Assembly: GCF_009192765.1 (NCBI RefSeq)
Contig: NZ_VOHQ01000004.1
Coordinates: 1 to 64,000, forward strand
Reading direction: 5' to 3'
Source: Agriterribacter humi
GTDB lineage: Bacteria > Bacteroidota > Bacteroidia > Chitinophagales > Chitinophagaceae
DNA: 64,000 nucleotides
Numbering within the stretch: the first letter of the stretch is position 1; the number at the start of each line of letters is the position of its first letter. Under the pieces are notes generated by a model. That model worked only from the letters and a program-made list of their open reading frames with translations, ran no database searches and had not been told where the DNA came from. A program made the position numbers and the translations under genes. Shown piece by piece: positions 7,565 through 22,431 of this stretch.

Positions 7565-9985
7565 TTATTTCTTCATCAGCCAAATTTCTGTTACCTGCGA
7601 TCCTCTTTGCCCTTCGCCACATGTCCAGGTAAAAGTTACCTGTCCGCCTGAAGTGGCTTCTTTTGGAATCTCGAATTCATAAACGGGTTTTTCGCCGGTT
7701 TGTATAAAATCATGTATAACAATATTGTCATTGGCCACCAGCTTTTGTTTTGACCTGAATCTGCCGGTATAAGTTATGCGCATTTTATAAGTGGCTGTTG
7801 TATCTAAGTTATCATACCGGATTTTTAAGGGAGTATCATATAAAGTATTGATCTGACTCATCCACGCGTTTGGCGTGGTTTGTCCCGAAAAACCCTGCGA
7901 TCTTACTTCATGCACCCATTCTTCTCCAATTACACCTACCCCAAAACTTATTCTCGGCGATTGCAGGCTTCCGGGGTCTTCCTGCCAGGTTTTTTCCGAA
8001 ATTAACCTGTGTTTGCTTTGTACTGATCCGAAATGATCATAAAAGCCACCTGGTCCCGGATCGGTACGGTGAAGCATTTCTTTTATCTTACCCACCCTTT
8101 CGTTATCATCCTCAAGTTTTTCAAATGCCGAAAGCTGATCCAGCAGCCATGGCGCATTGTTGAGCGGTAAATCTATATTGTCAATAAAATTACCCCTGCC
8201 AGGCATGGCCCCATGCTTTTCAATGGTAAGCTGCGCCCCAATGCTGCTAAACAATGAATCGGCAAGTACCATGCATTTTTCCTTTAATGCTTGTCCTACC
8301 GGTTCCTCCACGGCCTTTTCCAATATCATCCTTGCCTGCAGTATAGCAACCGATGAAGTTTCACTGGTTGCATTTTCCAGGATATCTTTCGCCTGTGCCT
8401 CCAATGCTTTTTCATGCGTTAAACGGCGCTGTATATAAGCATCATAATATGCTCTTAACAGGCACATCTGGAACCGGAAATTTTTTATTAGTTCGGGAGA
8501 AGCTTCACTTTCTATTTGTTGCCATTGCTGAAGCGTTTGTCCAACTTTTTCATTGGTGAGCAATGCCCCTCGTAAATTTTTCTCAAGACTCATAATGCCC
8601 TGTGCCGCCTCCTCAGCAATATCAGCATTCATAAACAAACGGCTATAATCACGCAATGTTTCCATTGCCGGTGTACCAGGATCCCAGTCCTGGTCGCTCC
8701 ATATAAATTTGTTTACATCATCGTTCGTGCCTTCGGAGTAGCTGATGCTGCCCGATGCATAGGGCGCCAGGATATTGTGAATATGCTTTTCGTCTTCAGG
8801 CCGGGGGTTCACACATTCTCTGCCCAGGGTCATCGCGTAAGCCACATCCCAGTCTGGCACAGGATACTGGCAGCTTAAGCTATGCGTTATATCCGGATAT
8901 CGCCTGATGGGAATTTCCGCTTTTACGAGCTTACGCAATTCCGCCAGCGGTATTTTAACCCACGGACCAAATACCACGCCCCCAAACCACGGGTAGCCGC
9001 TGTTGACATGTTTAAAAAAATCATCAAACCATTTTTGATTGGGGCGAAACACCTGTGGTGAAACCCATATCTTGGCATTGGGGTGGAACTGGTGCAGTGC
9101 TACTGCTATTTTTCCCAGCCAGTCGAAAAGCACATCAGGCTCAAGGTCGCCCGGATCACCACCCGGAACAAAGAGATGATCTAATTTTGGCAAAGCGGCA
9201 AAAACTTCTATCCGCTCCTGCATTTCTTTCTTAAGTGAATCCCTGTTGGTATAATCCGGCCCCATATTCGGGTACCACATCCACACGTCTAAGCCATACG
9301 ATTTGGCAATCTTTGATTGTTCTACCATCATTTTTACAGGCGGGAGTTTCATATGCGCACTGGTATCATCGTCATCTGTACGCGGAGGCATTATTTCAAT
9401 ACTGTTGGCACCGAATAAAGCCAGGTCGCGTATATACTGATCAAATTGCTTTACGGAAAAAGCATCGTATGAATTGGTTTTAGGACGGTAACCCAACTGG
9501 TGCCCCCGTATGGGATATTTGGGAGAGGTTGACAATTTAAGATTATCCGGTATCAACAATTGCCCGGGGCGCATGGCAGCTTTACGCAACAATCGCCCTA
9601 CACCATACAATACACTTCGTGCGTCCTTTGCCGTTATTACTACAGCATTTTGCTCCTTTATCGTCAGCAGCCTGAAGCCTTCATTACCGGGTTCTGCAAC
9701 GGCGTCTAACGCCTCCCGGATAGTTTTAGGCAGTTTAGATTCCCGGCCTGTTGCAAGGACATAAATAACCGTTTGTCCTTCATCGGGCTGTTTTGTAACA
9801 ACGGGAAGCAATAGCTGTGTTCTTTTCTGAATTTCCTCACGCAATACCTGAACCGGCTTTTCCAGTGATATTTGCTTTTCGCTGCTCACCCATATAATGG
9901 CTTTGGAAAGATCTATATGCTGCGCATAAGAAGAAAATACTGTCAGCAGAAAAACAATACAGGCAACCAGCTTTGAACATTTCAT
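7565..9985 (-). CDS. Secreted GH20/GH67-like glycoside hydrolase
   Basis: About 806 residues from the ATG at 9985. I prefer that start because it gives an immediate signal peptide (MKCSKLVACIVFLLTVFSSYAQ); a longer frame reaches 10063. Residues ~25-150 resemble the small alpha/beta domain that precedes GH20 and GH67 catalytic barrels. The centre looks like a TIM barrel (PIRGHQLGYRPKTNSYDAF, then IMPPRTDDDD and VPGGDPGDLEPDV), and the C-terminal part has a beta-rich accessory region. The substrate is not certain; hexosaminide or uronide linkages are typical of the related families. It converges on the sugar genes at 4349-7448 and probably belongs with them functionally. Confidence 0.75.
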   Translation of the reverse strand: MKCSKLVACIVFLLTVFSSYAQHIDLSKAIIWVSSEKQISLEKPVQVLREEIQKRTQLLLPVVTKQPDEGQTVIYVLATGRESKLPKTIREALDAVAEPGNEGFRLLTIKEQNAVVITAKDARSVLYGVGRLLRKAAMRPGQLLIPDNLKLSTSPKYPIRGHQLGYRPKTNSYDAFSVKQFDQYIRDLALFGANSIEIMPPRTDDDDTSAHMKLPPVKMMVEQSKIAKSYGLDVWMWYPNMGPDYTNRDSLKKEMQERIEVFAALPKLDHLFVPGGDPGDLEPDVLFDWLGKIAVALHQFHPNAKIWVSPQVFRPNQKWFDDFFKHVNSGYPWFGGVVFGPWVKIPLAELRKLVKAEIPIRRYPDITHSLSCQYPVPDWDVAYAMTLGRECVNPRPEDEKHIHNILAPYASGSISYSEGTNDDVNKFIWSDQDWDPGTPAMETLRDYSRLFMNADIAEEAAQGIMSLEKNLRGALLTNEKVGQTLQQWQQIESEASPELIKNFRFQMCLLRAYYDAYIQRRLTHEKALEAQAKDILENATSETSSVAILQARMILEKAVEEPVGQALKEKCMVLADSLFSSIGAQLTIEKHGAMPGRGNFIDNIDLPLNNAPWLLDQLSAFEKLEDDNERVGKIKEMLHRTDPGPGGFYDHFGSVQSKHRLISEKTWQEDPGSLQSPRISFGVGVIGEEWVHEVRSQGFSGQTTPNAWMSQINTLYDTPLKIRYDNLDTTATYKMRITYTGRFRSKQKLVANDNIVIHDFIQTGEKPVYEFEIPKEATSGGQVTFTWTCGEGQRGSQVTEIWLMKK

Positions 9986-15145: not shown

Positions 15146-15943
15146 TTGAGCATCACCATACATACCAGCAATTTAATAAAACAATACGGTAGCCGTACAG
15201 TGGTAAACCAGGTGTCGGTAGAAGTAAAGCAGGGGGAGATTGTAGGGCTGCTTGGACCCAATGGCGCCGGAAAAACCACAACGTTTTACATGGTGGTAGG
15301 ATTGATAAAGCCCGATGAAGGACAGGTTTTTTTGCAGGACAGGAATATTACCAAACTCCCCATGTATAAAAGGGCGCAGATGGGCATTGGCTACCTGCCG
15401 CAGGAAGCGTCTGTATTTCGTAAGCTGAGTGTGGAAGATAACATAGCCGCTGTACTGGAAATAACCAAACTGAGCAAAGCAGAGCAAAAACAAAAACTGG
15501 AGGCCTTGCTGGATGAATTTCACCTGCACCATGTACGCAAAAACAATGGTGATTCCCTGAGCGGCGGAGAAAGGCGCAGAACGGAAATTGCCCGCGCCCT
15601 TGCAGTTGACCCCAAATTTATTTTATTAGACGAGCCTTTTGCCGGGGTGGATCCTATTGCGGTGGAGGATATACAGGCGGTGGTTGCCCGCATGAAGTAT
15701 AAGAATATTGGCATTTTGATTACCGATCACAATGTAAATGAAACCCTTTCTATATGCGACAGGGCCTATTTGCTTATTGATGGAAAAATATTTAAACACG
15801 GTACAGCCGAAGAACTGGCCCAGGATGAACATGTAAAGCGACTTTACCTTGGCCGCAATTTTGAATTAAAGCGGAAAGATTATTTACATGAAGAAGCCAT
15901 CAAAGCGATTGGAGAATACCCTACAGTGGAACCCGGTGAGTGA
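15146..15943 (+). CDS. lptB: LPS export ABC transporter ATPase LptB
   Basis: A 265-residue ABC ATPase that powers extraction of lipopolysaccharide from the inner membrane with LptF/LptG. Walker [10 protein letters not shown] is at 37-45, the Q-loop Gln at 86 in [10 protein letters not shown] (an LptB hallmark), signature LSGGE at 138-142, Walker B ILLDEP at 159-164 and the switch His at 195. The start is TTG at 15146; no ATG is available nearby. The C-terminal tail (after FELKRKDY) is about 18 residues longer than many LptB proteins. The stop codon lies only ~14 bp from the broken end of a helicase remnant on the other strand, so the original 3' flank has been replaced. Confidence 0.95.
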
Positions 15944-16197
15944 TTAAAAAAGAAGAAAGCGCCGATTGCTTTTTCGGGAACGGCGACAATCACTTTTTTA
16001 ATACCCCGATTTTTCAGTTTATCCAGAGCAATAAACATCAATGCCCTCGACTTCCCCGAAGCGGGCGGTGCCTTTATCAAAAGATAATTCGCAGTTCGGG
16101 CAGCGAACGCTTTTTCCTGCATTTCGCGCATTCCCAGTTCATTTGTCTTTTTGCTTTTTCCGGTTTGGCTGTATTCTACTCGTACTAAATCGGGCAT
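15880..16197 (-). pseudogene. Truncated DEAD/DEAH-type helicase (N-terminal remnant)
   Basis: The ATG at 16197 begins a sequence that reads well as a superfamily 2 helicase N terminus for 80 residues: a short lead-in, then ANYLLIKAPPASGKSRALMF with Walker A at about 43-50 and KKVIVAVPEKAIGA, motif Ia-like, at 68-80. After about position 15957 the frame runs into FFFF and then into antisense of lptB, stopping at 15880. Motifs II-VI are missing, whereas helicases in modification/defence operons are normally 800-1000 residues. This is a deletion remnant, not a functional enzyme. It is the third gene of the methyltransferase operon, separated from the AlbA_2 gene by tandem repeats. Confidence 0.75.
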
Positions 16198-16290
16198 AAC
16201 CTGTTTTTTATCTAATGACTGTCTAAACAAAAGTTGTCTTAAACGATGTCGGCATTGGTATTCAAATAGTTATGATATTTTTACTTATAA

Positions 16291-16351
16291 AGTTCATCTA
16301 AAGTTTAACTAAGTTCATCTAAAGTTTAACTAAAGTTCATCTAAGTTTTAG
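16291..16351. repeat. Three tandem copies of a 21-bp repeat
   Basis: Two identical 21-bp units (16291-16311 and 16312-16332), each AGTTCATCTAAAGTTTAACT plus A, are followed by a degenerate third (16333-16351) that runs into the stop codon and last codons of the AlbA_2 gene at 16341. The array fills the junction between this gene and the helicase remnant, so it probably arose by slippage or during rearrangement of the operon. Confidence 0.8.
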
Positions 16352-17990
16352 CTTTTCTAACCCACTTAGGATATCTTATAGTTCCTTGATTTTCAATAAT
16401 ATGCTCTTTTCTTGAGAGGGCATATATCAAATTCCTGACTTTATTCAGCTTCTGTTTTTCATTTAAAACAGCCGGAAGAATATCTAAAAGCAGTTCGTCT
16501 ATGTTTGTTTTGGATGCCCAACCGTATTTGTCAATATATTCCAATATCATCCGCTTATAATGTTCGTCCTTAAATCCCCTCTGCTTAATATAAGTGGCTT
16601 TTTCCCCGGTTACACCGGCCACAGAAGATGAGATATAATAATTGGGCTTTCTGCCTTCGATCAACCTTTTTACTTTCAACCGCTTTGCCTCCTCATCGGT
16701 GATGCTTTTACCTTTAGCTATTTTATCCAGCAACATAATTTCATCAAGCAACAAGTCAGGCATTTGTGCCAGTTTGATGGCGTATTTCAGGTCCAGCACC
16801 CTGCCTACGATAGTTACCTGCACTTTATTTTTGCTCAAATCATAATCGGGCAAAGGAAAAAACTTTTTCCGCTGAATAACAAACATTCTTTTTATACCGC
16901 TGCCTGTTGTATCTATCATATTTAAATTGAGCATGGCATTGGCTAAAAACGGGTTACGGTACCTTGATTCGGGCGCATCCGATTTTATTACATGCTCTAC
17001 CGATTCCGGTATAAATGAACCGGCGTTAATAAATGTAAGCATAGCATCCTCCCGCTCCACAACATTTATTTTTCCGTTCAAAGTATAATCCTGGTGGGCA
17101 ATACAGTTGTTTAAGGACTCACGGATAATGTAGGGGTCAAACTGATCAACCTCATCGGGGAAAAGGCTGTCGTCTTTTATATACCTGTATTTCAGGTTGC
17201 GGATTTTATCTTTCACTTCATTTACCGCCAGTATAAACGGGCATCCGAAATGGGCATAGTCCTTTTCAATATTGTCCTTGTCCCGCAGTATCCATGAAAT
17301 CTTTGCCTGTGCCGGATTGATGAAATGGTCTGATTCCGGTTTACCCAACAATAGAATTGCCGTTCTGGTTACTTTGTTCTGTATGGTTACTTTGGCTTTG
17401 TTAAGGAAAGTAACATCATCCCATTGCAGGATTTCCTGCTCATTCTTTTTGTTTTTCTCAATGTATTGCTTCCGGGCAAAATCAATGGCTTCTTTTGAAA
17501 GGTCGGCAAGGGTAGCTATAGGAATTATTTGTGCCGACCAGTCAAGGGCTTTGTTTTGCACGCGGATAATGTCAAACTCCCTGTCGCTTAATGCACCCAG
17601 GCTTTCCCCGTTCCTGCCATAGTAATGACCTTTCCAGGAAACAGGATGGCCCTGCGGTGCAGCAGGTATTTTACAAAGGATTACCGTTTTGCCGTCTTTT
17701 TCTACCCGCTCTGTTTTATCAAATGATAGCCGTGGACTGGTATGCTGTGCCAGTTCGTTTTTATATTCATTCAGTTGGTTGTCGTTGATGATAGTGCCAA
17801 CAATCGTCCTGTCGTTTTTTACGCCTAATACCAACCAGGCATTTTCTGTGTTTTTTAAGTTGGCTTCGTTGCTTAAAGCAGAAAAATATTGTCCCAATTT
17901 GTCTTTGTCATATTGGGTCTTTGCTTCTTTAAACTCTACCACCTCATTTTCGGCAGATAAGGTCAATAGCTTGTTGAGTATGTCTGTCAT
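16341..17990 (-). CDS. AlbA_2 / HATPase_c_4 ATP-binding protein
   Basis: A 549-residue protein of the COG2865 type (often misnamed RecG-like). Residues ~10-135 form a Schlafen/AlbA_2 domain with the characteristic VVEFKEA at 17-23 and the later GHYYGRNGES. Residues ~285-370 resemble the HATPase_c_4 fold, with N-box RESLNNCIAHQDY at 290-302 and glycine-rich TTGSGIKRMF at 361-370. The C-terminal ~150 residues look like winged-helix DNA-binding segments. AlbA_2 proteins are seen in many defence islands, but their chemistry is unsettled. The start overlaps the methyltransferase stop by 4 bp (17987-17990), indicating coupled translation. Confidence 0.85.
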   Translation of the reverse strand: MTDILNKLLTLSAENEVVEFKEAKTQYDKDKLGQYFSALSNEANLKNTENAWLVLGVKNDRTIVGTIINDNQLNEYKNELAQHTSPRLSFDKTERVEKDGKTVILCKIPAAPQGHPVSWKGHYYGRNGESLGALSDREFDIIRVQNKALDWSAQIIPIATLADLSKEAIDFARKQYIEKNKKNEQEILQWDDVTFLNKAKVTIQNKVTRTAILLLGKPESDHFINPAQAKISWILRDKDNIEKDYAHFGCPFILAVNEVKDKIRNLKYRYIKDDSLFPDEVDQFDPYIIRESLNNCIAHQDYTLNGKINVVEREDAMLTFINAGSFIPESVEHVIKSDAPESRYRNPFLANAMLNLNMIDTTGSGIKRMFVIQRKKFFPLPDYDLSKNKVQVTIVGRVLDLKYAIKLAQMPDLLLDEIMLLDKIAKGKSITDEEAKRLKVKRLIEGRKPNYYISSSVAGVTGEKATYIKQRGFKDEHYKRMILEYIDKYGWASKTNIDELLLDILPAVLNEKQKLNKVRNLIYALSRKEHIIENQGTIRYPKWVRKAKT

Positions 17991-20701
17991 TGCGCCTCTT
18001 TCTTTTTTCTCGGTTTTTTCTGTTTTGCAAACAGCGTATCTTTCTTTGTCATCTCCTCATACATTTTAAACAAATACTCCAACCGCTCCGTATCTGATGC
18101 AAACGGCTGTATGCGGTAACATTGTTCTACGGCTCTATCCAGTTCTTCGTGCGCCTGCCTCAGACCTTTGGGCATTTTGTTGGGATCGTAAAGTTGCGCC
18201 ATTGTTTTTTCGGGATGTTTGGCGCGCTCATCTAAAATAGTAAACACATACAGGTTCAGGTTTTCTTTTTGTTTAAGGGTGATATCGGGAAAAGGGAAAG
18301 TGTTATAACACAGCTTAACTGAATAGCGGTAATCTGTTTTCAGCTTACCACCAACTGCACGTACCCAAACCATGTGCATTTTGGAATGGATTACTCCAAA
18401 AAGCCAGGGTTGGGCATCATAAATGGCCATTGCAGAATCAGCGATAATTGTATCACCGTTATAAAAACCTAATGGTATATATTCTCTGTTCTCAGAAGAA
18501 TGCCTTGGAATTAGTATTGCATCCGAATATTGATGCCTAATTTCTCCGAATTTGTGTGCTGATGCCGCTAATTTTCGTGTAGCTTCCCGACTACTGTTTA
18601 ATCCATATTCCCTGACTGAGTTTACGCTATTAGATATTTCTGGAATCTGTATAGCTTCTTCCTTTTCAGTATCATTTATCCAAAAACAATAACGCTGGTT
18701 TCCCTTAAGAAACTCGGAACTTCCAATAAATGGTTTAACAAGCTTTCTTGATTTCTCATTTTTTAGCCTTGCCATATCGTCTTCTTCTAACAGTAGAAAT
18801 CCTCCGTCATTTGGCATATTTCCAAAACTCATTTCAGCAACCTTAGAAATTGGCTTACTTCTCCCTGTAATAATAATATTGGCATAACCCAGTAAATAAG
18901 AGTTTATGTTTTTAGCTTCCCTTCTGATATTTCCTGTAAACAAATACTTTGCCTCGTTTGAAGCATTACGAAAACTTAGAATAATTACGGTAACACCTGC
19001 ATTGCCTTTTGCATTGTTGGACCATTTGAAAGATTGATAAGCAAAACCAATTTCAATTTTATCGGAAATAAGATGCGGCCAAAGCAAAGCTACTTGCTCA
19101 CCCTGACAAATTGAATTGGTAGTTACAAACGCGACTTTTGCATTAAGCCCTTCTATGTAATCTTTTGCTTTGTAAAACCAACAGGAGATATAGTCCAAAT
19201 TATTGTATCCATTAATCCCGCGGAATACAATAGCCATATCCATTTTTTGTTCTTTATCCTGCAACCTTGCCCCAAAATAAGGCGGGTTTCCAATAATATA
19301 CACTTCATCATCTTTATCAATCGGGCAAACCTCTTTCCAGTCTATACGGGCGGCGTTTCCCTGCACTATTTTACCCGCTTGTTTGAGTGGTAATATAGGT
19401 TTGGATTTTCCATAGCCCTCTAATTGCTCATCAAATACCCGGTTCACCTGGTGCTCGGCTAACCATAGGGAAAGGATAGCCATTTCGTGGGCAAAGTCGT
19501 CTAATTCTATACCATAAAACTGGTTCAGCGAAATGGAAGTGGTGAAAGCGTCTGCAAATAAGGGTATTTTCTCCAGCCCGATTATCTGCTGTATGATTTT
19601 TATCTCCAGCACCCGCAACTCCTTATAAGTGATAATTAAAAAATTACCGCTGCCGCAGGCCGGGTCAAAGAATTTGATATGGGCAATGCGGGCAATCAGT
19701 TTTCTTAATTGTGCCGCATTATTTTGATACTTTTCAAATGCTTCATACAACTCATCCAGAAACAGCGGTTTAATGAGCTTTAAAATATTGGGAACTGAAG
19801 TGTAGTGCATGCCCAGGTCGCTACGGTATTCGGGTATTATCACCGCCTGTATCATGGAGTCGAATATATCGGGGTTGATGTCGCGCCAGTTCAGTTCGCC
19901 TAATTCCACCAGTATTTTCCGCGCTTTACCAGTAAAAACCGGCGAATCAATTTTATCCCTGAACAGGCCGCCGTTTACATAGGGAAATGTAGCCAAATGT
20001 GCAGATAGACCTTTGGTGTTTTCAGTATTCAACCGTTCAAAAAGACGGTTTAAAAACAAGTGTGTGTCACTTCCGTTATCGGCTGTATGCTGGGCCAAGG
20101 TATTGGTGAAAATGCTTTCTTCTTCAAATATTTCCGTATCCTCCGCAAAGAAGCAGAACAATAGCCTTGACAGGAAAATATTCAGGTTGTGAATGCTTTC
20201 TTTGGAATTATAAATATTCTTATTTTCTGTTACCAGCACATCGTACAACCGGGCCATTTTATACGCTGCATTACGGTCGGCTTCATTGTCATTGGTGGAA
20301 TGATATACTTCGCTCCCTGCAAGCGGTAAGAAAAAACTGTAATATTTGGGCAACTCTTCAACAGGAATATCCAGGTTCCTGCCCAGCTTCAGGTCCTTTG
20401 CCACCAAAGTTTTATAATCTGTAACAATGGCGAAACGGGGCTTATGTTTTAATACCCGCTCTTCTTTAGAAATGGCATCAATGGAGCTGAGCAGTTTGTT
20501 GGTTTCCTCTTCTTTGAAGAATATCTTTTTCTTATGCAGTACTTCTCCTTCCCCTTTTGAAAGATTGAAGTCACCATTTTTCAACCTGGTAATGGAAGTT
20601 TTAGAAATGCCGTAAGCCAACAGCAAATCAAAAAGAAAATCTGTTTTTGAAAAATTCTTAAAGATGCGCTTTACGTTATCTTCTATTTCGTGGCTGTTCA
20701 T
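17987..20701 (-). CDS. MmeI-like class I DNA methyltransferase
   Basis: A 904-residue protein with an MmeI-like domain order. The helical spacer contains RLLFCFFAEDTEIF (179-192) and LGMHYTS (296-302). The catalytic domain has SAM motif I DPACGSGNF (346-354) and amino-methyltransferase motif IV NPPYFG (472-477), consistent with N6-adenine methylation. A target-recognition region lies at about 600-800, and the C-terminal PNKMPKGLRQAHEELDRAVE is typical of the family. In the N-terminal domain I do not find a clear PD-(D/E)XK nuclease motif, so this looks like a methylase-only relative of type IIG/IIL enzymes. It is first in an operon with an AlbA_2 gene and a helicase remnant. Confidence 0.88.
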   Translation of the reverse strand: MNSHEIEDNVKRIFKNFSKTDFLFDLLLAYGISKTSITRLKNGDFNLSKGEGEVLHKKKIFFKEEETNKLLSSIDAISKEERVLKHKPRFAIVTDYKTLVAKDLKLGRNLDIPVEELPKYYSFFLPLAGSEVYHSTNDNEADRNAAYKMARLYDVLVTENKNIYNSKESIHNLNIFLSRLLFCFFAEDTEIFEEESIFTNTLAQHTADNGSDTHLFLNRLFERLNTENTKGLSAHLATFPYVNGGLFRDKIDSPVFTGKARKILVELGELNWRDINPDIFDSMIQAVIIPEYRSDLGMHYTSVPNILKLIKPLFLDELYEAFEKYQNNAAQLRKLIARIAHIKFFDPACGSGNFLIITYKELRVLEIKIIQQIIGLEKIPLFADAFTTSISLNQFYGIELDDFAHEMAILSLWLAEHQVNRVFDEQLEGYGKSKPILPLKQAGKIVQGNAARIDWKEVCPIDKDDEVYIIGNPPYFGARLQDKEQKMDMAIVFRGINGYNNLDYISCWFYKAKDYIEGLNAKVAFVTTNSICQGEQVALLWPHLISDKIEIGFAYQSFKWSNNAKGNAGVTVIILSFRNASNEAKYLFTGNIRREAKNINSYLLGYANIIITGRSKPISKVAEMSFGNMPNDGGFLLLEEDDMARLKNEKSRKLVKPFIGSSEFLKGNQRYCFWINDTEKEEAIQIPEISNSVNSVREYGLNSSREATRKLAASAHKFGEIRHQYSDAILIPRHSSENREYIPLGFYNGDTIIADSAMAIYDAQPWLFGVIHSKMHMVWVRAVGGKLKTDYRYSVKLCYNTFPFPDITLKQKENLNLYVFTILDERAKHPEKTMAQLYDPNKMPKGLRQAHEELDRAVEQCYRIQPFASDTERLEYLFKMYEEMTKKDTLFAKQKKPRKKKEAQ

Positions 20702-20724
20702 TTTCTTATAGAGTTGAAATCTGC

Positions 20725-20746
20725 GATAGGCACAATGTAGCCTATC
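20725..20746. promoter_or_regulatory. Inverted repeat in the methyltransferase leader
   Basis: GATAGGC (20725-20731) and GCCTATC (20740-20746) form a perfect 7-bp dyad with an 8-bp spacer, 24 bp upstream of the methyltransferase ATG. Methylase-led operons often carry operators or leader hairpins here. No controller gene is adjacent, so its reader is unknown. Confidence 0.4.
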
Positions 20747-20773
20747 CGCTTTGATATTTTATACTGTTTTGCA

Positions 20774-20803
20774 TAAAGATATAAAAACCACAACCCGGAG
20801 CAA
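20774..20803 (-). promoter_or_regulatory. Candidate promoter of the methyltransferase operon
   Basis: On the minus strand TTG (20803-20801) is followed after 19 bp by TATCTTTA (20781-20774), close to the Bacteroidetes consensus. The dyad at 20725-20746 would fall in the 5' leader of the transcript. Confidence 0.35.
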
Positions 20804-20922: not shown

Positions 20923-22431
20923 ATGGGAATATTAAGTACAACCATATCGCAATTGGCCCGTATGCGGCTGTGGCGTATTGAAGCCTGGGTACAACATCCC
21001 ATAGCTTCACAGCGGGAGGTATTGCAGGACCTGGTTACCTCGGCCCAGTATACGGAGTTCGGCCGCAAATACAATTTTTCTTCCTTATTTTCTACACGCG
21101 ATTTTAAAAAAGCCGTGCCTATCCATGAGTACGATGACCTTAAGCCTTACATACAACGCATGATGGACGGCGAAGAAAATATTTTATGGAATACGCCCAT
21201 CCGCTGGTTTGCCAAAAGTAGTGGTACCACCAGCGATAAAAGCAAGTTCATTCCCATAAGCGAAGAAAGCTTGGAAGACTGCCACTATAAGGGAGCCAAG
21301 GATACCCTTACCATGTATTATAATTTCAATCCCGATTCAGACCTGCTAACTGGCAAAGGATTGGTAATTGGTGGCAGCCATACCATTAACCAGGTAAATG
21401 AGGAGATCCATTATGGCGACCTGAGCGCTGTACTTTTACAAAATTCTCCCGTGTGGGGGCAATGGATCCGTACGCCTGAACTGTCTATTGCTCTTATGGA
21501 TGAATGGGAAACCAAAATTGAAAAGCTGGCTGAAACCACTATTGCGGAAAACGTTACTTCTATTTCGGGAGTGCCTACCTGGACAATGGTGTTATTCAAA
21601 AGAATACTGCAAATTACCGGTAAAAGCTGCATTGCCGAAGTATGGCCATCCCTTGAATTGTATATTCACGGCGGTGTGTCGTTTACCCCTTACCGGGAGC
21701 AGTTCAGAAAAATAATAGGAAAGGAGATTTACTATATAGACAGCTATAATGCCAGCGAAGGTTTTTTTGCGGCGCAGGACAAACCAGGCGAAGATGGCAT
21801 GTTGCTGTATCTTGATCATGGGGTATTCATGGAGTTCATGCCTTTTGAAGAATACGGAAAAGAAGATCCTCAGACCATCGGACTGAAAGATGTGGAGACA
21901 GGTAAAAATTATGCACCCGTGATCAGTACCAACGGAGGGTTATGGCGCTACTTATTGGGTGATACCATACAGTTTACAACACTGTATCCTTTCCGGATTA
22001 AGGTAAGCGGAAGGTTAAAACATTTTATCAACGCTTTTGGCGAAGAAGTGATTGTAGACAACACCGATAAAGCGGTTTCCATGGCATGCGAAAAAACAGG
22101 CGCCATTGTAAATGATTATACGGCCGCCCCGGTTTACTTCAGCGATAATGGAAATGGCGCACATGAATGGCTGGTGGAGTTTGATAAGGAACCTGCCAGC
22201 CTCGATGATTTTACACTTGAATTAGACAAGGCGCTGCAAAGCATAAATAGCGATTATGAAGCAAAGCGCTATAAAGACATTGCCCTCCATCAACCCTTGC
22301 TTCATATTATGCCCAAAGGGCTTTTTAATGAGTGGTTGAAAAGCAAAGGCAAACTGGGCGGGCAGCATAAAGTTCCAAGGTTGAGTAATGAACGTTCCCT
22401 TATTGAAGAAATTCTCGCGTTCAAATCATAA
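20923..22431 (+). CDS. GH3 auxin-responsive-promoter-family acyl-adenylase
   Basis: A 502-residue member of the ANL adenylating superfamily, GH3 branch. ATP-binding motif SSGTTSDKSK is at 99-108, a YNASEG motif near 279 corresponds to the YxxxE nucleotide motif, and YLLGDTIQF near 346 corresponds to the conserved Asp motif. Plant GH3 proteins join amino acids to jasmonate or auxin via acyl-AMP; bacterial members are widespread in Bacteroidetes with unknown substrates. fabG follows 73 bp downstream on the same strand, which may hint at an acyl substrate, but this is inference. Confidence 0.92.
   Translation: MGILSTTISQLARMRLWRIEAWVQHPIASQREVLQDLVTSAQYTEFGRKYNFSSLFSTRDFKKAVPIHEYDDLKPYIQRMMDGEENILWNTPIRWFAKSSGTTSDKSKFIPISEESLEDCHYKGAKDTLTMYYNFNPDSDLLTGKGLVIGGSHTINQVNEEIHYGDLSAVLLQNSPVWGQWIRTPELSIALMDEWETKIEKLAETTIAENVTSISGVPTWTMVLFKRILQITGKSCIAEVWPSLELYIHGGVSFTPYREQFRKIIGKEIYYIDSYNASEGFFAAQDKPGEDGMLLYLDHGVFMEFMPFEEYGKEDPQTIGLKDVETGKNYAPVISTNGGLWRYLLGDTIQFTTLYPFRIKVSGRLKHFINAFGEEVIVDNTDKAVSMACEKTGAIVNDYTAAPVYFSDNGNGAHEWLVEFDKEPASLDDFTLELDKALQSINSDYEAKRYKDIALHQPLLHIMPKGLFNEWLKSKGKLGGQHKVPRLSNERSLIEEILAFKS

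Follow-up and report, generated by a model that had tools for sequence, protein, structure and literature searches.

How a DNA methyltransferase without a nuclease of its own comes to stand beside a Schlafen-like gene and the first residues of a helicase is the question raised by one locus of Agriterribacter humi (GCF_009192765.1). It lies within the first 64,000 nucleotides of contig NZ_VOHQ01000004.1, the stretch that we analyzed and call here the window. The original prediction took the three genes (an MmeI-like methylase, an AlbA_2/HATPase_c_4 gene and a helicase fragment) for a compact defense system outside the named types, with restriction delegated to the AlbA_2 and helicase partners. 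Instead, the locus is very probably a decayed restriction-modification (RM) cluster of the DnmA-YeeB-YeeC type, a kind already described in the available text of two reports (PMC7261158, PMC9973331), located between an LptB-like and a GH3-like gene and carrying the AlbA_2 gene as swappable cargo. Gene content, gene loss, empty sites, asymmetry of the cargo slot, cargo turnover and repeats are all observed, while the biochemical activities discussed below are those predicted from domains and relatives.

The methylase and its missing partners

The methylase matched all five MmeI domains of Pfam (MmeI_Mtase at an expectation value, E, of 8.4e-105 and the target recognition domain, TRD, at 9.8e-79), and PADLOC classed it as type IIG, with 1002 bits for the best type IIG model versus 108 for the best DrmMI. 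It shares with MmeI (type IIL, PDB 5hr4) the methylase, spacer, TRD and C-terminal domains but, unlike MmeI, whose N-terminal domain carries its own nuclease, it lacks the catalytic positions. D70, E80 and K82 of MmeI, which we take to be the nuclease triad, align to an insertion, K and E when a 14-sequence family profile is compared with 5hr4, and therefore the nuclease is missing family-wide and not in this copy alone. The prediction of an MmeI-like adenine methyltransferase devoid of a nuclease motif was right in this respect, as was that of a 4-bp overlap with a gene of AlbA_2/HATPase_c_4 architecture, read directly from the sequence. No second copy of the methylase was found in the genome at E ≤ 0.001. 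The MmeI_Mtase profile also matched, at the family-profile level, the B. subtilis control genome.

The third gene is indeed the N terminus of a helicase. It keeps only residues 1 to 82 of a protein of ca. 660 aa, with 84% identity to an intact homologue, and the genome contains no other match to the helicase at E ≤ 1e-20. A GIY-YIG partner was not found in it either at E ≤ 0.001, in a search without its own positive control. The complete arrangement is present in a genome of the same order (G162, locus L033), in which full-length methylase, AlbA_2 and helicase genes are followed by a GIY-YIG gene; the helicase has 661 aa, and the next protein, of 411 aa, has MUG113 and T5orf172 domains (GIY-YIG type). 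In the available text of PMC9973331 and PMC7261158, DnmA (YeeA) of Bacillus subtilis is MmeI-like without nuclease motif and is accompanied, in conserved order, by the helicase YeeB and by YeeC (T5orf172/GIY-YIG). The nuclease-less MmeI-like N6-methyladenine (m6A) methylase, the superfamily 2 (SF2) helicase, the T5orf172/GIY-YIG protein and their order are thus common to both. Unlike that cluster, the window has no YeeC and lacks most of YeeB, which is full length in relatives, and the AlbA_2 gene lies between DnmA and YeeB. Since the YeeC-type gene is absent (no match in the genome, and deleted relative to the sister species described below), the window holds a decayed derivative and not a full member of this kind.

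Within the phylum, the L033 helicase had matches (E ≤ 1e-20) in 10 of 395 genomes, namely eight long ones and two stumps, one of them that of the window. A scan of the contigs of named genomes provided at least 550 helicase relatives, and the best 80 were kept for locus counts. Their longest helicase frame has a median of 646 aa, well short of the ca. 900 residues expected beforehand for an intact protein. In the nuclease, the GxIY, KIG, R, E and H positions are each conserved in at least 73 of 76 aligned proteins. PADLOC gave a weak PDC-S57 match for the nuclease gene of the sister species (G405, E 1.2e-5) and none for that of L033 at E ≤ 1e-10, and the helicase profile had no match among solved structures at E ≤ 1e-5. 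Judging from these domains and from published relatives, the methylase of an intact cluster would mark host DNA with m6A, and the YeeB-type helicase and YeeC-type GIY-YIG nuclease would attack unmarked DNA. Vibrio crassostreae became more sensitive to some phages when its dnmA and yeeB relatives were deleted (PMC9973331, PMC7261158, available text). In a plasmid collection, helicase relatives (E ≤ 1e-30) were found in 261 of 72,556 records, 116 predicted to be conjugative, and the AlbA_2 protein of the window matched only 5 records. In another locus (L063:4635-13080), an AlbA_2-type gene and genes that look SIR2-like and HerA-like by eye accompany the helicase and its GIY-YIG partner; the window methylase has no BLAST match within 19 kb around it.

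Both flanking genes were found in all 12 genomes of the genus, the window genome included. The site is empty in eight of them (G395 to G401 and G404), with the flanks ca. 90 to 200 bp apart, and occupied in three (G000, G405 and G403, the last judged across a contig break); the state of G402 could not be judged. At the same site, G405 (L156) has a methylase and an AlbA_2 protein 89% and 90% identical to those of the window, a helicase with one in-frame stop and the GIY-YIG gene. Compared with it, the window lacks ca. 2.98 kb (about 1222 to 4201 of L156), from helicase codon ca. 83 to just past lptB, a deletion that took the helicase from about residue 83 and the entire GIY-YIG gene. G403 keeps at the site a helicase stump of ca. 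30 residues, next to a Fic protein in place of AlbA_2, and has elsewhere a full methylase-helicase-GIY-YIG set. An AbiEii toxin gene lies directly upstream of this full set (L157:7391-8194). Outside these, G263 has an intact AlbA_2 frame between a methylase remnant (residues 865 to 901) and a helicase remnant (about the first 23 residues), and in G190, helicase residues 1 to 61 continue into GIY-YIG residues 370 to 402. With broken copies in the window, G405, G403, G263 and G190, loss of the restriction arm is recurrent. A copy that has lost most of the helicase and the nuclease gene, such as that of the window (Table 1), may still methylate but should not restrict. G401, with an empty site, has a partial methylase of the same kind near the start of another contig (L158:89-1924; the first ca. 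600 residues, 84% identical).

Table 1. Coordinates of the features of the locus within the window
Feature	Coordinates	Strand	Remarks
Flank and site boundary, LptB-like ABC ATPase gene	15146..15943	+	named by eye
YeeB-type SF2 helicase stump	15952..16197	-	residues 1-82, decayed
Deletion junction (~2.98 kb relative to G405)	15953..15974	.	GATTGC[T/G]TTTT microhomology
Two separate TTTAGAC-like copies	16221..16242	-	≤1 mismatch; start 30 and 45 nt upstream of the helicase start codon
Direct-repeat array across the AlbA_2 stop codon	16288..16348	-	11-bp/21-bp period; Tandem Repeats Finder score 108
Cargo gene, SLFN_AlbA_2 - GHKL ATPase (HATPase_c_4) - C-terminal region (putative winged helix)	16341..17990	-	549 aa, intact frame
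MmeI-like (DnmA/YeeA-type) m6A DNA methyltransferase	17987..20701	-	904 aa, intact frame, nuclease motif missing
Flank and site boundary, GH3-like gene	20923..22431	+	named by eye

The same genome has a second restriction-like locus (L160:3350-13249, contig C34), with a PLD-SNF2 helicase (1097 aa), an Eco57I-type methylase (1188 aa), an AAA_15/SMC-like ATPase (558 aa) and another SLFN_AlbA_2-HATPase gene (443 aa).

The cargo slot between methylase and helicase

In 68 of the 80 named loci, the helicase is preceded by a methylase frame, which in some cases is partial. The gap between the two genes is ≤100 bp in 34 of these and 336 to 4873 bp in the other 34. At the junction of helicase and nuclease, the gap is ≤100 bp in 77 of 79 loci (130 and 442 bp in the remaining two; one contig ends before the nuclease). 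The asymmetry between both junctions is marked (Fisher test, kinship ignored, p = 5e-12). Helicase and nuclease thus adjoin almost always, and the methylase-helicase junction is occupied by an insert in half of the loci. Twelve of the 34 inserts contain an AlbA_2-type frame (counting L094 and L142, which have pieces of AlbA_2 and RhuM), 11 RhuM and 11 other genes; two (L082 and L135) have no frame of at least 90 aa. We scanned 20 representative cargos against Pfam, some of them from loci outside the named set or with the methylase off the contig, and found RhuM (2), Fic, Abi_C, AAA_13, AAA_15, YhcG nuclease, KAP ATPase, AIPR, M78 peptidase, SecB-like and DUF3800 domains, while seven cargos had no match at E ≤ 0.001. 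PrrC, RhuM-like and Fic/Doc-like genes have been reported in RM loci (PMC3710099, available text).

The slot state was known for 74 of the 86 helicases in a quick tree (LG+G4): 35 empty, 13 with AlbA_2, 12 with RhuM and 14 with other cargo (L081 and L157, both empty, are one sequence). The AlbA_2 label required 11 changes for its 13 rows (shuffled mean 12.2, as low in 96 of 500 shuffles), RhuM 12 (mean 11.4) and the empty state 22 (mean 24.8, as low in 80 of 500). Taken jointly, the four labels changed 31 times versus 35.0 in the shuffles (as low in 7 of 200), which reveals some clustering. These values near the shuffled means indicate that the cargo turns over faster than the helicases diverge. 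The AlbA_2 gene is thus an optional, swappable cargo, present in 13 of the 74 known slot states, and singling it out as the odd part of the trio was a good instinct. The delegation of restriction to partners stands insofar as the methylase has no nuclease; the conserved partners, however, are the helicase and the GIY-YIG nuclease. The core gene set was already known, and the cargo slot represents a new variant of it. The available text of PMC9973331 and PMC7261158 mentions uncharacterized neighbors and no cargo slot.

The AlbA_2 protein and the repeats that follow its gene

The product of the AlbA_2 gene matched SLFN_AlbA_2 (E 5.7e-18) and HATPase_c_4 (E 1.9e-11) in Pfam. Among 18 AlbA_2 sequences, E16 and E19 are invariant and E14 nearly so, and the E-x4-E spacing of E14 and E19 agrees with what we take to be the active site of SLFN13. 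An AlphaFold model (mean pLDDT 79, pTM 0.52, from 12 sequences) matched in Foldseek DIP2311 (E 3e-23), SLFN12 (4e-5) and, more weakly, the tRNase domain of rSAMD9 (3e-3), with TM-scores normalized by query all below 0.4. From the modeled fold and the company it keeps in the slot, we infer that the protein is most likely a Schlafen-like RNase switched by its GHKL ATPase domain, which would serve as a second line of defense. A comparable arrangement is PrrC in the PrrI type Ic RM locus, an RNase gene within a restriction locus acting as a second defense line, although PrrC, unlike the AlbA_2/GHKL protein, is an ABC-ATPase/HEPN protein (PMC3710099, available text). The architecture, with an AlbA_2 domain and a GHKL ATPase, is also that of the Schlafen RNase-minimal histidine kinase-winged helix-turn-helix (wHTH) proteins, whose genes are reported from no fewer than 1017 taxa in linkage with BREX and related loci (PMC12839542, available text). 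Like them, two loci of the family of the window protein are placed between PglX-like and PglZ-like genes; unlike them, the window gene belongs to an MmeI-like methylase/helicase/GIY-YIG cluster, and repeats after the gene are not mentioned in the available part of that report.

Searching for this family, we found matches in 142 of 395 genomes at E ≤ 0.001, mostly weak, and inspected 20 loci (L032 to L051) of the 29 listed besides that of the window. The gene was found in type I loci (L034 and L042, and beside HsdR in L036), between PglX-like and PglZ-like BREX genes (L044 by PADLOC, L046 by BLAST), between type III Res and Mod, in the order Res-AlbA_2-Mod (L048 and L050), and adjoining Mod-like genes (L037, L038 and L041; farther off in L039). 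L033 is of the DnmA type, and L032 has only remnants of this type. The other seven (L035, L040, L043, L045, L047, L049 and L051) have no clear partner. In a tree of 22 rows, with the second AlbA_2 subfamily left out, one supported clade unites the G263 protein with five of the six DnmA-linked ones, and the sixth (L134) stands apart. Together with the locus contexts, the tree indicates that the cassettes move, yet partly keep to a partner type.

The array across the AlbA_2 stop codon is the top-scoring tandem repeat of the whole window. TTTAGAC/TTAGAT-like units after AlbA_2 exceeded all 500 mononucleotide shuffles in the six inspected members of this clade (the window, G405, L032, L033, L120 and L127). 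Other units were found after AlbA_2 in L046 (TTTAGTCGCG), L050 (GATTACGATTG), L034 (TTAGAAGAGA), L042 (TTAAGAGAAGA) and L048 (TTTAGGCGA), and a TGCAGAAT-like unit in six of eight close relatives of the L044 protein, L044 included; the units differ by AlbA clade. A separate copy of the unit lies ≤50 nt from the next start codon in 7 of 13 loci compared in detail (window, L156, L120, L127, L046, L048 and L044). In a self-match test against dinucleotide shuffles (passed at p ≤ 0.02), 11 of 35 regions downstream of AlbA_2 passed, all with lags of 9 to 12 or 21 to 22, and none of the 35 upstream, which are mostly coding DNA. With a k-mer test (threshold of ≤2 in 200 shuffles), 7 of the 35 downstream regions passed and none of the 35 upstream. 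Among control gaps after other genes, 10 of 120 passed (Fisher p = 0.001 versus AlbA_2, kinship ignored), their lags ranging between 7 and 28 and being 11 in three cases; one of the ten follows a Fic-wHTH gene before the L121 helicase and has an 11-bp unit at the stop codon of that gene. Within the clade of the window, the window, L033 and L127 passed, and L080, L032 and L120 failed (p = 0.15, 0.03 and 0.13), although the TTTAGAC-like counts of all six were above those of every mononucleotide shuffle. L048 failed narrowly (0.023), and the second AlbA_2 subfamily (L078, L071, L088, L093 and L142), L134 and L063 also failed. In three AlbA_2-helicase gaps, RNA hairpins folded no better than in shuffles (z of +1.25, +1.73 and +1.48). 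The helical spacing of ca. 11 bp and the position suggest that the arrays are candidate operators. No report tying direct repeats to Schlafen/AlbA and RM was found in a search of the open-licence literature of PubMed Central.

If the arrays are operators, the AlbA_2 protein might be a transcriptional controller only, of the kind called a C-protein-like timer, and not an RNase effector, which we consider possible although rather unlikely. The arrays would be well placed for this, after AlbA_2 and before the next gene (in most of the 13 compared loci a helicase, HsdR or PglZ-like gene), with a restricted lag, clade-specific units and nothing upstream. The C-terminal part of the protein diverges fastest, and Foldseek listed winged-helix proteins (Zalpha and MecI) with probability 1.00 but E values of 0.06 to 0.2, the matched part not being shown in the output. 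There is also a precedent in RptR, the repressor of a type I RM island, which acts by binding to direct repeats of 9 bp (PMC12255303, available text); there too, short direct repeats are linked to the regulation of restriction genes, although RptR is a small protein at the operon promoter and the arrays of the window come after the cargo gene, inside the operon. On the other hand, E16 and E19 of the Schlafen-like domain are invariant and E14 nearly so, a Pfam search of four AlbA_2 proteins at E ≤ 1 revealed no helix-turn-helix (HTH) domain, the arrays of type III loci precede Mod, and a pure controller would be unexpected in a slot shared with Fic, Abi_C and SMC-like ATPase genes. A less certain step of the preferred reading, with AlbA_2 as an RNase cargo, is that its C-terminal region may bind the downstream ca. 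11-bp repeats, tying its state to the expression of the next gene.

Extending this, AlbA_2-GHKL proteins of this family (and some Fic-wHTH ones) might be portable control-and-kill cassettes that carry their own operator, the ca. 11-bp array. The C-terminal domain would read the cognate array and restrain the next gene, lost contact would free the Schlafen-like RNase, and cassette and array would move together among DnmA-type, type I, type III and BREX loci. As a whole, we regard this proposal as speculative and unlikely.

It is improbable that the arrays are instead cassette-edge or recombination sites used for cargo swapping. Their position at the cargo stop codon would fit, as would TTTAGAC-like copies left where AlbA_2 cargo is absent. 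However, visual inspection of non-AlbA cargos with a gap revealed no clear array in most cases, AlbA_2 genes of other types of systems are followed by arrays too, and recombination does not need a helical-turn spacing. The copies in question are found in L101, directly before the helicase (before position 8001), and possibly derive from a former cargo.

Selection on the remaining genes and competing readings

The methylase and AlbA_2 could also work on their own as a pair, in which modification is combined with an AlbA_2 effector or regulator and neither helicase nor nuclease is needed, so that the window would be functional as it is. Both frames are intact and coupled by the 4-bp overlap, and purifying selection is apparent between the window and G405, with ratios of nonsynonymous to synonymous substitution rates (dN/dS) of 0.094 for the methylase and 0.163 for the AlbA_2 gene (0.058 in the AlbA_2 part and 0.36 in the C-terminal part). 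Moreover, the restriction arm is broken at this site in three species by apparently separate events (stumps of ca. 82 and ca. 30 residues and an in-frame stop). However, the dead helicase stump likewise has a low dN/dS (0.039), so the values may largely date from selection that preceded the deletion and do not prove that either gene is still in use. A deletion from the lptB side would remove nuclease and helicase first under any selection, Fic replaces AlbA_2 at the same site in G403, and the AlbA_2 frame of G263 is intact beside a mere methylase remnant. We consider a self-sufficient pair improbable. The synonymous divergence (dS) between the window (16341 to 20701) and L156 is uneven, 0.16 in the AlbA_2 domain, 0.42 in the methylase TRD and 1.4 to 1.5 in lptB, the methylase N terminus and the helicase stump, which suggests recombination of the middle of the operon between lineages.

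That the locus is a subtype of DISARM, BREX or MADS can practically be dismissed: the methylase had weak PADLOC matches to DrmMI, PglX and mad2, and the LptB-like flank matched mad3 and mad8, as an ABC ATPase may, but the type IIG model scored far higher, and except for this ATPase, the eight flanking genes had no match at E ≤ 0.001 in the scan of the window. With PADLOC, applied to the trio and these eight genes, membership in BREX (PglZ and BrxC without a match, and a weak PglX match of the methylase alone), in DISARM (no DrmA or DrmB, and DrmMI far below type IIG) and in MADS was rejected.

Several observations weigh against a decayed DnmA-YeeB-YeeC-type cluster with a swappable, repeat-linked RNase cargo. 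G405 and G403 have broken helicases at this site too, so relatives may often be inactive; the B. subtilis cluster gave no protection against three phages (PMC9973331, available text). AlbA_2, intact in G263 beside remnants of both core genes, could have a role of its own. Regarding the protein, the third acidic position of the Schlafen site varies among the 18 sequences, and the HTH domain is missing from the Pfam matches given above. As for the repeats, only 11 of the 35 downstream regions passed (three of six in the clade of the window), as did 10 of the 120 controls, and in type III loci (L048 and L050), the gene that follows is the methylase Mod and not a nuclease, so that an operator there would control the methylase.

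The cargo slot and the AlbA_2-linked repeats are worth following up, with the mechanism proposed here as an inferred one. DnmA-YeeB-YeeC is a little-studied cluster that looks inactive in B. subtilis, and half of the relatives surveyed carry an insert, often a defense-type gene. The repeated loss of the cutting genes is a source of orphan methylases. The repeats linked to AlbA_2, in turn, offer a clear-cut and inexpensive way of testing, in several unrelated systems, how such embedded genes may be coupled to their neighbors.

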